NCBI GenBank assembly: GCA_903929355.1
Contig: CAIYUN010000058.1
Location: 62,001 to 126,000, forward strand
Source of the DNA: an uncultured Opitutaceae bacterium
Lineage (GTDB): Bacteria > Verrucomicrobiota > Verrucomicrobiia > Opitutales > Opitutaceae
Length of the DNA stretch: 64,000 bases
Direction: 5' to 3'
The notes under the pieces were generated by a model that saw nothing but the letters and a program-made list of their open reading frames with translations, did not search any database and had not been told where the DNA came from. Shown here piece by piece: positions 3,358-57,228 of this stretch. The position numbers were made by a program, and so were the translations under genes. Position 1 is the stretch's first letter. Each line of letters begins with the position of its first letter.

Positions 3358-3504
3358 GATTCACGAAGGGAAGGGAGTGGGCGACCACAAGGACGGGGCC
3401 TTCGCCCATGACTTACCCAAACAAAAACCTGTAACCACTAATGCACACTAATTTGCACTAATCAGATCCTCGGAATTAGTGGTCATCAGTGTCCATTAGT
3501 GGTT
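3358..3504 (+). repeat. 147-bp palindromic dispersed element, copy 1
   Basis: Begins TGATTCACGAAGGGAAGG and ends CCATTAGTGGTT. The second half is an imperfect palindrome. The left arm AACCACTAATGCACACTAAT... faces the right arm ...TCAGTGTCCATTAGTGGTT across a 12-base loop containing GATCCTC. Homologous copies lie at 6511-6656 (inverted), 18922-19068 and 51512-51689. It sits between the T2SSB-like gene and the truncated DUF5615 remnant, inside an otherwise gene-free stretch (3286-3565). It contains no open reading frame of note. Confidence 0.85.
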
Positions 3505-4730: not shown

Positions 4731-4756
4731 CTTGAAAAGAATCTCGACCCAATATT

Positions 4757-4818
4757 CTGACCTCTGACCTCTGACTTCTGACGTCTGACATCTGGCTTCC
4801 GGCCTCCGGCCTCCGGCT
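4757..4818. repeat. TCTGAC-type degenerate tandem repeat
   Basis: A run of TCTGAC units with one variable base between them (C, T, G or A), ending in TCTGGCTTCCGGCCTCCGG. The same composition and order recur inside the sua5 coding region (about 41140-41185), twice in opposite orientation at 11945-12057, and in inverse orientation at 56896-56930. Here it lies between the RRM gene and its terminator. Confidence 0.75.
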
Positions 4819-6419: not shown

Positions 6420-6510
6420 AAAATGGCACAGGAGACTGAATCAACCGAACCGGACCGGAAGTTTTTACAGGAGGACACAGGGAAAACGGAGGCCGGAAAA
6501 GGCAGAGTTT
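6420..6510. repeat. Short degenerate repeats (TTTTTACAGGAGGACACAG type)
   Basis: Contains TTTTTACAGGAGGACACAGG followed by AAAACGGAGG. Related strings occur at 12803-12860 and 41851-41884, where they likewise abut the ACTGAT/ACTAAT repeats. Together with the palindromic element that follows it fills the 360-base gene-free stretch between purU and the YfgM-like gene. Confidence 0.55.
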
Positions 6511-6656
6511 AACCACTGATGGACACTGATGAACACTGATTCTGAGGATCGGATTAGTGTAAATATCTGGGCATAAGATGTTAGAGGTTTTATCTGGAGA
6601 GGTCATAGACGAACGCCATGCCTTTGTGGCCTAGATATTATTCCATTGGTGAATCA
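6511..6656 (-). repeat. 146-bp palindromic dispersed element, copy 4 (inverted)
   Basis: Read on the minus strand it begins TGATTCACCAATGGAATAAT and ends CATCAGTGTCCATCAGTGGTT. It shares the middle block GGCCACAA...GTTCGTCTATGACCTC and the loop GATCCTCAGAATCAG with the other three copies. Its left arm (AACATCTTATGCCCAGATAT) has diverged most from the consensus. Confidence 0.8.
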
Positions 6657-11944: not shown

Positions 11945-12057
11945 AGAGGTCAGAGGCCAGATGTCAGAGGTCAGAGACCAGAAGCTGGCACGGCTCCCTT
12001 TGTCCAAGGCTGACTTTTGTCCTCTGGCTTCTGACGTCTGATATCTGACATCTGTTT
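11945..12057. repeat. Inverted pair of TCTGAC-type repeats
   Basis: The left part (GAGGTCAGAGGCCAGATGTC and following) and the right part (CTTCTGACGTCTGATATCTG and following) are the same repeat in opposite orientation. They could form a long imperfect hairpin over the whole yidC-yebC spacer. The loop contains CTTTGTCCAAGGCTGACTTT. No coding potential. The hairpin has no T tract, so it is not a standard terminator. Confidence 0.7.
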
Positions 12058-12802: not shown

Positions 12803-13113
12803 TTTAACAGGAGGAAACGGACCCGCCGTCGCTGAAGCTATGGCGCGGCGAGGGAAACGGAGGTGGAACCACTAATCTTCACTAATCCACACTAATGGCG
12901 GGGGAGGGGGGCAGGAACTGAGGCAGGGACGAGCCGAGGGCACAGAGAAAGAAAATTCTACCACGGATTACACGGATGCACACGGATGACGGCGTTGAAC
13001 AGAAGGCAACGAGGGGAACCATGTGGTGGCTGCGGCCGGACGGGTCTCGGCGGGTCCGGCCATAGGCGGGACCGGACTGGAAAATATTAGTGTTCATTAG
13101 TGTCCATTAGTGG
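12803..13113. repeat. Composite repeat block with outer inverted ACTAAT arms
   Basis: This fills the 340-base spacer before metX. In order: TTTTTAACAGGAGGAAACGG (interrupted by a GCCG...CGGCGA-like insert); AACCACTAATCTTCACTAAT (from 12869); GAGGGCACAGAGAAAG; ACCACGGATTACACGGATGC; TTGAACAGAAGGCAACGAGG; and at the far end ATTAGTGTTCATTAGTGTCC ... AGTGGTT (to 13113). The first and last ACTAAT blocks are inverted copies that enclose the rest. TTGAACAGAAGG-AACGA recurs at 19168. Confidence 0.65.
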
Positions 13114-16372: not shown

Positions 16373-16485
16373 TTGAGGCGCGGCTTCGTTTCGGATGCGG
16401 GTTTCTTCCAGTGCAGATGTGTGGCCCTGCCATTTTTGGGTCAATCATTCTCCCCGTCCGGGCCTCAAATCCGAATCGGCTCCGC

Positions 16486-16682
16486 CCATCAGTGTCCATT
16501 AGTGAGTATCAGTGGTTAAAACGTTTTTCTCGGTTCCCTCCGAATCTTCCAGTTCATTACCGTCCCATCCGTGTGAATCCGGGTTGATCCGTGGTTAAAA
16601 ACTCCGTCCTCCGTGTACTCGGCTTGGTTCTCTGTGCGCTCCGTGTCCCAATTCCGATTCCGTCCTCACTGTGATCAGCTTC
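16486..16682. repeat. Mosaic of short periodic repeats
   Basis: The spacer between the paralog pair and dsbD (about 310 bases) contains ATCAGTGTCCATTAGTGAGT, then TTTTTCTCGGTTCCCTCCG, ATCCGTGTGAATCCGGGTTG, ACTCCGTCCTCCGTGTACTC and CTCTGTGCGCTCCGTGTCCC. Each is a variant of a word found in other spacers of this window, read here in plus orientation. No open reading frame stands out. Confidence 0.6.
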
Positions 16683-18921: not shown

Positions 18922-19068
18922 TGATTCACGAAGGAAGGGATGGGGAGACCACAAGGACGGGCCCTTCGCCTATGACCTACCCAAACAAAAACCTGCAACC
19001 ACTTATGCACACTCATTTGCACTGATCCAATCCTCAGAATCAGTGTTCATCAGTGTCCATCAGTGGTT
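18922..19068 (+). repeat. 147-bp palindromic dispersed element, copy 2
   Basis: Exactly the length of copy 1. It begins TGATTCACGAAGGAAGGGAT and ends CAGTGTCCATCAGTGGTT, with the shared TTCGCCTATGACCTACCCAA middle block and a palindrome around the loop CAATCCTCAGA. It lies just upstream of the dsbD start within a 495-base gene-free stretch. The remainder (19069-19332) holds a partly similar tail and a TTGAACAGAAGGTAACGAAG word also found near 12993. Confidence 0.85.
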
Positions 19069-19332
19069 GAAATCCGACCGTTGGAAAAGTTCTCATCCAA
19101 GTTTTCCCAGAGTTGTGGGGTTATTCATGATCATTGGGTTGGAGTCATCCATGTATCGGCACTGAGTTTGAACAGAAGGTAACGAAGGAAACTAAGCGGC
19201 CAAGGTGGACGAGCGGTTCAGGATTCGGCGTCGGGATTGAGCACGGTCAAATCCAATAACAGGCTTGCCAATCGGCGCCCTTCGGCAGAAATGGAGCTGC
19301 GCCCGCCGGCGTGTTTTCGACCCACCCGATCA

Positions 19333-40782: not shown

Positions 40783-41901
40783 CTACCGCGCCGCGGCGCG
40801 GGCGAGGCGGTCGTTGAGCGCGGCGGCGAGGCCGGCGGCGCCGGGCACCCGCTCGGCGCGGATCGCCCGCCACCCGCCGCGGTCGAGCGTCCGCAGCCGG
40901 GCGTACAACGTGCGGGCGGCCTCGGCGGGGCGGCCGGTCGTGGTGAGCCAGAAAAGATTCCCCGCGCCGGCGGGCACCCTCGGCGGGCGGCGGAAATACA
41001 GGAACGCGGTGCCTGCCTCCCGCACGGCGCGGGCGGGCGCGGGGTTTTTTTTGCCCAGCGCGAGCGGCGTGCGCGGGCTGTAGTGGCGCGCCATCATGCC
41101 CGGCGCGACCATGCCGCCGCTTTTGCCCGAGATCGGGTTTTCTCCGGCCTCCGGCTTCCGGCCTCTGACCTCTGACGTCTGGTTCCCCGCGACCGCCCGC
41201 GGTCGCGGGGCGCGGACCCGGCGGCGCAGCACTTTTTCCAACGCGGCGCGGGGGATGGCGCCGGGACGGAGCAGCTCCGGGCGCGCCGGGTCGCGGAGGT
41301 CGAGGATGGTGGACTCCACCCCAATCGCACACGCGCCGCCGTCGAGGATGTGCGCGATGCGCGCGCCCAGCCCGGCGCGGACATGCGCGGCGGTCGTGGG
41401 GCTGATGTACCCAAAGGGGTTGGCGCTCGGCGCGGCCAGCGGCCGGCCGCACAGGCGCAGGAGCGTCCGGAGCAGGCGGTGGCTCGGCATCCGCACGGCG
41501 ACACTGTCGAGCCCGGCGGTGACAATCGCCGGCACGCCGGCCCGCTTGGGCAGCACCAGAGTGAGGGGGCCGGGCCAGAACGCGGCGGCGAGGCGGCGCG
41601 CGGCGGGGTTGAGGACCGCGACCTCGTCCGCCTGGGCGAGGGTGCGGACATGGACGATGAGCGGGTCGGTGACGGGCCGGCCCTTGGCGCGAAAAATGGC
41701 GCGGCAGGCGGTGGGGTTGAGGGCGTCGGCGGCGAGGCCGTAGACCGTCTCGGTCGGCACGGCGACGAGGCCGCCGCGGGCGAGGACGCCGGCAAGCCGG
41801 GCCAGGTTGCGCGGGGTGGGCCGCGAGATACGGGCGGGACGGGGGACGGACTTTTTTACAGGAGGAAACAGAGGGAACGGAGATCGGAGGGTTTCAACCA
41901 C
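40783..41901 (-). CDS. Threonylcarbamoyl-AMP synthase, Sua5 type
   Basis: Makes L-threonylcarbamoyl-AMP for the t6A37 tRNA modification. N-terminal YrdC domain with VPTETVYGLAADALN, KGRPVTDPLIVHV (KRP..-like loop), AAFWPGPLTLVLPK, VAVRMPSH and APSANPFGYISPTTA. C-terminal Sua5 domain after a linker. Two oddities. The frame continues far upstream of YrdC through intergenic repeats, and the only start codons there (GTG 41901, ATG 42006) lie in repeat DNA. The linker contains a translated TCTGAC-type repeat plus a palindrome (41130-41212). The start is therefore provisional. Confidence 0.9.
   Translation of the reverse strand: MVETLRSPFPLFPPVKKSVPRPARISRPTPRNLARLAGVLARGGLVAVPTETVYGLAADALNPTACRAIFRAKGRPVTDPLIVHVRTLAQADEVAVLNPAARRLAAAFWPGPLTLVLPKRAGVPAIVTAGLDSVAVRMPSHRLLRTLLRLCGRPLAAPSANPFGYISPTTAAHVRAGLGARIAHILDGGACAIGVESTILDLRDPARPELLRPGAIPRAALEKVLRRRVRAPRPRAVAGNQTSEVRGRKPEAGENPISGKSGGMVAPGMMARHYSPRTPLALGKKNPAPARAVREAGTAFLYFRRPPRVPAGAGNLFWLTTTGRPAEAARTLYARLRTLDRGGWRAIRAERVPGAAGLAAALNDRLARAAAR
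41130..41212. repeat. Repeat inserted within the sua5 coding region
   Basis: Contains CCTCCGGCTTCCGGCCTCTG, ACCTCTGACGTCTGGTTCC and a perfect palindrome with 11-base arms CCCCGCGACCG / CGGTCGCGGGG (41185-41195 and 41200-41210). The first part is nearly the same as 4757-4818. It is read in frame as the linker between the two Sua5 domains (about 27 residues, including NQTSEVRGRKPEAGE). Confidence 0.75.
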
Positions 41902-42060
41902 TGATGGGCACTGATCCAGAAAAACGGGAGGAGGACAGGCGGAGATTTTCCCGCGGATGGAAGCGGAGGGGCACTGATGGAGCGGAACGGAAGCAGAGCG
42001 GTACACGGCAGGGCACGGATAGACTCAGAAACCAGAGGTTTTACAGAAGATCGCAAAGAT
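41851..42060. repeat. Mosaic repeats upstream of sua5
   Basis: Words in order: TTTTTTACAGGAGGAAACAG, AGGGAACGGAG, TTTCAACCACTGATGGGCAC, then TTTTCCCGCGGATGGAAGCG, ACAGGGCACGG and TTTTACAGAAGATCGCAAAG. They overlap every possible start codon of sua5. CAGGAGGAAACAG and the ACTGAT word recur in the same order at 6465-6540 and 12803-12900. Confidence 0.6.
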
Positions 42061-51511: not shown

Positions 51512-51689
51512 TGATTCACGAAGGGAAGAATATAGAGGCCACAAGGGCTTGGTGTTCGCCTATGACCTCGCCAAACAAAAACCTTTAACCACTTATGCAC
51601 ACTAATTCGCACTTATCCGATCCTCAGAATCAGTGTTCATCAGTGTCCACCGTGTCCTCCAGAGCCTTGGCGTAGGAGGATCAGTGGTT
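51512..51689 (+). repeat. Palindromic dispersed element, copy 3, with nested insert
   Basis: Same plan as copies 1 and 2 (TGATTCACGAAGGGAAGAAT ... GATCCTCAGAATCAGTG ... ATCAGTGGTT) but 31 bases longer. Between TGTCCA and the last ATCAGTGGTT lies an extra TCCTCCAGAGCCTTGGCGTA-GGAGG hairpin, a member of another repeat family. The stretch from 51437 to 51931 holds no gene; beyond the element only weak repeat-like words and the 3' end of the next minus gene are seen. Confidence 0.82.
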
Positions 51690-54823: not shown

Positions 54824-54864
54824 GGGGCAAAGGAACGATTAACCAGAAGGATGGAGTTTTTAAC

Positions 54865-55010
54865 CACTGATTCACACTGATGGGCACTGATGGACGAAGG
54901 GGAGCAAAAGGCTGAGGTCAGCCAATGGGTTGAGACCCGAGCTTCAACATGGCGCGAAGCTGGGTCGAGGGTGTTGAAATTACCGCGCAGGGCAAGCCCG
55001 AGAACCAAGC
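54865..55010. repeat. ACTGAT and CGAGAACC type repeats
   Basis: TTAACCACTGATTCACACTG with ATGGGCACTGATGG is a compact ACTGAT block in the same orientation as 6511. GCCCGAGAACCAAGCACGAA and GCACCCAGCACCAAG follow and form another periodic word. The spacer leads to the 3' end of dnaJ. Confidence 0.55.
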
Positions 55011-56836: not shown

Positions 56837-56895
56837 GGGAGGGTTGAACCATGCAAGGGTGGCGGGAATCTTCAAGCTCCGCGATGCGTAGGGGG

Positions 56896-57112
56896 GGCAG
56901 AGGCCAGAGGCCAGAGGTCAGAAGACGGGGGTGCATTCAGGACATCCTATCCGGAAACCGAACGATGGGATGTTCAGGAGGAAACGGTGGGAATAGAGGT
57001 ACGGAAGTCGGAGCTTTTAACCACGGATTGCGCGGATCGTCACGGATGGCAGAGGGACGGAAACCACGAAGGGTTAACCACTGATGCACACTGATTGGCA
57101 CTGATGAACGGA
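56896..57112. repeat. Mosaic repeats upstream of grpE
   Basis: The 390-base gene-free stretch 56837-57228 holds GAGGCCAGAGGCCAGAGGTC (TCTGAC type, inverse), TTCAGGAGGAAACGGTGGG, TTTTAACCACGGATTGCGCG, GGATCGTCACGGATGG and GTTAACCACTGATGCACACT with GATTGGCACTGATGAACGG. Three different template words (ACGGAT, ACTGAT, AGGAGGAAACGG) occur here side by side in one orientation. Confidence 0.6.
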
Positions 57113-57228
57113 GGGACCAGAGTCAGGCCGAACCGGGGGTTGGGAAGAATTCTGTGGTTCTGTCCGTCCTCTCGGCACGTATGCAACCTTCAGGCGATCA
57201 CATATTCATCGGGTCTGCAGCTCGCGGC

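Follow-up and report, generated by a model that had tools for sequence, protein, structure and literature searches.

We analysed a stretch of 64,000 nucleotides (hereafter the window) from the genome of an uncultured Opitutaceae bacterium, whose assembly comprises 3.8 Mb in 91 contigs. The gene of interest in the window is sua5, which encodes a threonylcarbamoyl-AMP synthase. Both domains of the protein, YrdC (PF01300, E 2.8e-56) and Sua5_C (PF03481, E 2.3e-18), were intact, and the gene was the only significant Sua5 match in the genome. The protein was 68-77% identical to the Sua5 proteins of the congeners. The features of the locus and the related repeat copies are listed in Table 1.

Table 1 Features of the sua5 locus and of related repeats. 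Positions are those of the window unless a locus is named.
Feature	Position	Strand	Remark
sua5 (threonylcarbamoyl-AMP synthase)	40783-41901	-	read from GTG 41901; PF01300 and PF03481 matches
Open reading frame of sua5	40783-42006	-	extends to GTG 42006
Lineage-specific part of the linker (approximate)	41095-41211	-	LRPG-to-APG 51 aa vs median 30 aa in 44 non-congeners
Six TCYGRCN heptamers (+ strand spelling)	41143-41184	-	42 bp = 14 codons; interdomain linker; stop-free GTCAGAN sense
Perfect inverted repeat CCCCGCGACCG-CCCG-CGGTCGCGGGG	41185-41210		26 bp, 11-bp arms; also translated; single copy in genome
10-bp-period repeat (AACCACTGATGGGCACTGAT on +; family D4)	41894-41935		its end supplies GTG 41901
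Nine-unit heptamer array	4756-4818	+	comparison copy of the initial annotation; same unit as the sua5 array
Two inverted heptamer arrays	11948-12057		11948-11982 and 12023-12057
Four-unit heptamer array	56895-56922	-	
(A)CACTGATNN family, window copies	3431-3504, 6509-6591, 12865-12906, 16480-16521, 18988-19074, 51578-51649, 54858-54901, 57074-57115		
QueG with two in-frame heptamer arrays	L132:1236-2666	+	
HrpA-like helicase (named from sequence) with two in-frame heptamer arrays	L266:35-2882	+	G010, another genus

The predicted linker between the two Sua5 domains contains an in-frame array of a degenerate 7-bp repeat that is dispersed through the genome. The array consists of the units TCCGGCC TCCGGCT TCCGGCC TCTGACC TCTGACG TCTGGTT, and its translation forms part of ...GNQTSEVRGRKPEAG... 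without a stop codon; the initial annotation, which had described a TCTGAC-type dispersed repeat kept in frame within the linker, was therefore correct on both points. Its statement that the array is almost identical to the copy at 4757-4818 was overstated, since the two share units in a different order and are 72% identical without gaps. The tryptic peptides predicted to run through the repeat are AVAGNQTSEVR and KPEAGENPISGK.

The initial annotation had also drawn attention to the palindrome that follows the array. The palindrome is indeed perfect; however, no further copy was found genome-wide, even when two mismatches were allowed, and comparable palindromes occurred 1, 0, 1, 0, 0, 0, 0, and 0 times in eight first-order Markov copies of the window. 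Because it is a single copy and lies near the chance expectation, it is not evidence of an element. Furthermore, hairpins lay beside 3 of the 67 sampled heptamer arrays, no more often than beside control sites (2), and the palindrome was rejected as a dispersed element.

The heptamer itself proved to be abundant. Three successive TCYGRC units (TCYGRCNTCYGRCNTCYGRC) gave 252 matches in the 3.8-Mb genome, as against one for the reversed pattern, and three strict TCTGAC units gave 83 matches, as against none for the reversed control. Among the relatives, the strict form was found 2 times in G002, 10 times in the sister species G003, and 49 times in G010, which belongs to a different genus; no match was obtained in the congeners G001, G004, and G005. 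In the phylum as a whole, 15 of 145 sampled genomes contained the strict form, nearly all with few copies. The two inverted arrays in the window are about 40 bp apart, and a hairpin between them is possible.

The period of seven has a consequence for the reading frame. On the GTCAGAN strand the codons rotate as GTC AGA NGT CAG ANG TCA GAN, so that no stop occurs in any of the three frames and the same cyclic peptide, V-R-x-Q-x-S-(D/E), is read in each. On an unbroken TCTGACN strand, TGA is met in every frame, and an array within a gene should therefore be tolerable in one orientation only, with the exception of short arrays or arrays rich in TCTGGC or TCCGGC. Among the sampled arrays, those spanning long open reading frames lay almost exclusively with the GTCAGAN strand as the sense strand. 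To be compatible with function, an array within a gene would in addition need a net length divisible by three and a tolerant loop.

The sample comprised 67 arrays in 53 genome stretches, the degenerate ones being taken from among the matches listed, up to contig C53; genes were called by means of a simple codon model, for which the window and the fetched loci served as training data. Most of the 67 arrays lay outside predicted genes or at their edges. About 10 were inside genes with Pfam support. Since coding sequence makes up about 83% of the window, most copies within genes appear to have been purged. The 47 intergenic arrays that could be classified from genes called without start sites were situated between tandem (28), convergent (10), or divergent (9) genes.

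The linker was subsequently compared with that of relatives. The LRPG-to-APG stretch measured 27-48 aa (median 30) in 44 Sua5 proteins of non-congeners, whereas it measured 51 aa in the source genome and 44, 59, 46, 36, and 45 aa in the other five members of the genus. The initial annotation had named relatives outside the repeat-bearing clade with a linker of equal length and sequence as the finding that would refute its proposal; this comparison did not refute it, the typical linker outside the genus being shorter. One non-congener, G009, also has a linker of 48 aa, which contained no recognised repeat, which indicates that linkers can lengthen in other ways. The linkers of the congeners align poorly with one another, so the insertion point in sua5 can be placed only approximately.

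In the sister species G003, the sua5 linker (sua5, C241:2053-3150) contains AGTGTCACTTATTAAGTGACACT and a one-mismatch copy of it, at C241:2413 and 2470. This sequence is a dispersed palindrome unrelated to the heptamer; it matched 27 times on the forward and 29 times on the reverse strand in G003, 4 times on each in the source genome, and nowhere in the four other congeners. The source genome and G003 thus have mutually unrelated dispersed repeats in the same Sua5 linker. The Sua5 interdomain loop has been described as a flexible segment of about 20 residues that bears the functionally important PGM and HY motifs (PMC10321239). The array lies upstream of these motifs, in the loop just before APGM..HYSP.

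Sua5 is not an isolated case: dispersed short repeats lie in variable loops of other conserved proteins as well. In the source genome, in-frame heptamer arrays were also found in QueG (two), an RsmB-like protein (an inverted pair), the C-terminal tail of ScpB, a WD40 protein (three), a glycosyltransferase, and a TPR membrane protein. The second QueG array lengthens the stretch GLLRNAC...LHP to 57 aa, as against 29 aa in the congeners; the insert, which is absent from relatives, is exactly 84 bp (12 x 7 = 28 x 3). Outside the genus, the first loop of QueG is short except in G009. Within the genus it contains ATCCAAA-type heptamers in G003 and G005, an inverted pair of CGCGACGAGGGCGTCGCG in G001, and one arm of this pair in G004. 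CGCGACGAGGGCGTCGCG gave 31 matches in G001 and 33 in the source genome. Inverted repeats of CGCGACGAGGGCGTCGCG are dispersed through the six genomes of the genus, for example at G001:C77:1883-1937.

The remaining cases differ in weight. Relatives of the RsmB-like protein lack the inserted stretch, and G007, a non-congener, has a long loop of its own there. ScpB provides weaker evidence, because its tail is variable in all relatives. Three TPR membrane paralogues (L239, L240, and L241 on contig C81), which are about 85% identical, have arrays of different lengths in one loop, all in frame, and this trio offers a natural series in which the growth and loss of arrays can be followed. In G010, 2 of 34 heptamer arrays lay in frame within the HrpA-like helicase. 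From the open frames and the conserved flanks we infer that the repeats are translated.

Taken together, these findings are most probably explained by a near-neutral insertion and expansion of dispersed short repeats that are tolerated in protein loops, the Sua5 linker being one case. In such a process, short repeats would spread through intergenic DNA and then grow or shrink in place. A repeat landing inside a gene would usually be purged; it could survive only where it falls in a length-tolerant loop, adds a multiple of 3 bp, and presents its stop-free strand. The Sua5 interdomain loop before APGM..HYSP is probably such a tolerant loop, and the insert is most likely near neutral for the enzyme. 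In a limited search, neither a transposase nor a target-site duplication was identified.

A possible, though rather unlikely, alternative is an origin of the array within sua5 itself, by replication slippage that expanded a low-complexity Arg/Gly/Glu-rich linker into a 7-bp tandem repeat with no import of a dispersed element. Growth and loss in place do occur, given the different array lengths at one site in the three paralogues, and the linker is long in all congeners. Nevertheless, the same degenerate unit is present at well over 60 separate loci of the source genome, the TCYGRCN unit is rare or absent in most relatives, and the repeats in the G003 linker are identical or nearly identical to about 25 other copies in that genome. 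Furthermore, across the 67 arrays the seventh base of neighbouring units was identical with a frequency of 0.339, against 0.333 expected by chance. Fresh slippage of single units would not leave neighbours alike only at the chance level; pure single-unit slippage does not fit, and recent slippage of this kind is unlikely to be the whole story. The identity of the seventh base was higher at lags of 2 to 7 units (0.42-0.51) than for neighbours.

We consider it improbable that the insert is functional, for example by tuning Sua5 through a longer loop beside an active-site motif, and has been kept by selection. Such a role would agree with the position of the loop ahead of the PGM and HY motifs reported to be important for activity (PMC10321239) and with the lengthened linkers of all congeners; however, the insert differs among the congeners in both sequence and length, different repeat families are present at this site, and the same peptide recurs in unrelated proteins, among them QueG, RsmB, and ScpB. 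It is highly improbable that sua5 is decaying or wrongly assembled at the repeat and only by accident appears to be read in frame, since the missing start codon at the usual position of the family and the fragmentation of this assembly and of most compared genomes stand against two intact, high-scoring Pfam domains, the lack of any second Sua5, the identity to congeners given above, and the recurrence of in-frame repeats in other genes and genomes.

In-frame insertion into conserved genes has a known counterpart in the Rickettsia palindromic elements (RPEs), to which the initial annotation had compared the repeat. RPEs are dispersed, lie in frame within conserved genes, and give rise to peptides of one kind in proteins that are unrelated (PMC10969869, PMC3767692); for RPE-4, -6, and -7, orthologues have been reported to carry elements of different groups at one site (PMC3767692). 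The comparison holds for the in-frame repeat within conserved protein-coding genes, Sua5 and others, for the short linker outside the genus, and for the presence of different, unrelated repeats at the same site in related species (the Sua5 linker in the source genome and G003; the QueG loop in the source genome, G001, G003, G004, and G005). It fails for the structure: RPEs are palindromes of 100-150 bp with a family consensus, whereas the arrays described here are built from a varying number of degenerate 7-bp direct repeats; the array in sua5 occupies 42 bp, the adjacent palindrome is a single copy, and the palindromes inserted into the Sua5 of G003 measure only about 23 bp. The heptamer arrays thus work like RPEs but are not RPEs, from which they are set apart by structure.

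Among known repeats, the one closest in form is the TAACTGA heptamer, described from marine Beggiatoaceae and some cyanobacteria. It occurs mostly in intergenic arrays and in some cases in frame within open reading frames; it has stops in all frames one way and is open the other (PMC4679880). Both systems consist of 7-bp direct arrays that are mostly intergenic and can be read through in one orientation, the other being blocked by stops in every frame. In contrast to the fixed TAACTGA unit, TCYGRCN is degenerate. TAACTGA arrays are located mostly just upstream of start codons. Their copies within genes are mainly peripheral or in hypothetical proteins (PMC4679880), whereas several of the present arrays lie within internal loops of conserved enzymes. 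A published account of such repeats in Opitutaceae was not found among the open-licence papers searched. Degenerate intergenic heptamer arrays are also represented by the STRR (short tandemly repeated repetitive) heptamers of cyanobacteria; by their description, these differ from the present repeat in both the unit and the host group.

Dispersed repeats that colonise conserved genes in frame at high frequency are known mainly from Rickettsia. A case from a GC-rich, Opitutaceae-like lineage, in which the same loops of enzymes such as Sua5 and QueG contain several repeat families, provides an independent natural experiment, which bears on how non-coding DNA turns into protein sequence and on which loops tolerate such inserts. 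The combination of a period of seven with a strand free of stops in every frame would be a simple, testable rule; the stop asymmetry itself has already been described for TAACTGA (PMC4679880). A broader reading can be proposed, in which the Sua5 linker and the QueG loop are recurrent acceptor loops for unrelated repeat families that routinely lengthen housekeeping proteins, the ancestral start of sua5 has been replaced by an intergenic repeat, and periods not divisible by three are favoured, since one strand then encodes an identical peptide whatever the frame. We regard this combination as doubtful.

Finally, we examined the start of sua5. Of the in-frame codons that precede the YrdC domain, just two were ATG, GTG, or TTG, namely GTG 42006 and GTG 41901, both within the repeat-rich spacer between rpsR and sua5. 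The initial annotation had placed every possible start in intergenic repeat DNA; this applies to both candidate codons, although the actual start is only putative. GTG 41901, the nearest possible start, lies 48 codons before PTET and forms the end of the ...CATCAGTGGTT 10-bp-period repeat. The Sua5 proteins of most relatives start 27-34 codons before PTET, where the source gene has no start codon. In G003 and G004, GTG GTT occurs within a GTGGTT motif at 35 and 38 codons before PTET, respectively; G002 and G005 have GTGGTT nearby together with a GTG at 31 codons, and G001 has an ATG at 29 codons. These positions are suggestive of a GTGGTT repeat end serving as the sua5 start, without enrichment of such starts genome-wide. 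For GTGGTT repeat ends as start codons in general there was no support, since in-frame coding followed them about as often as it did some control hexamers (7 of 108 such ends, 4 of 59 for GTGCTT). The second dispersed family with a 10-bp period, (A)CACTGATNN, was often bounded by AACCAC or GTGGTT.
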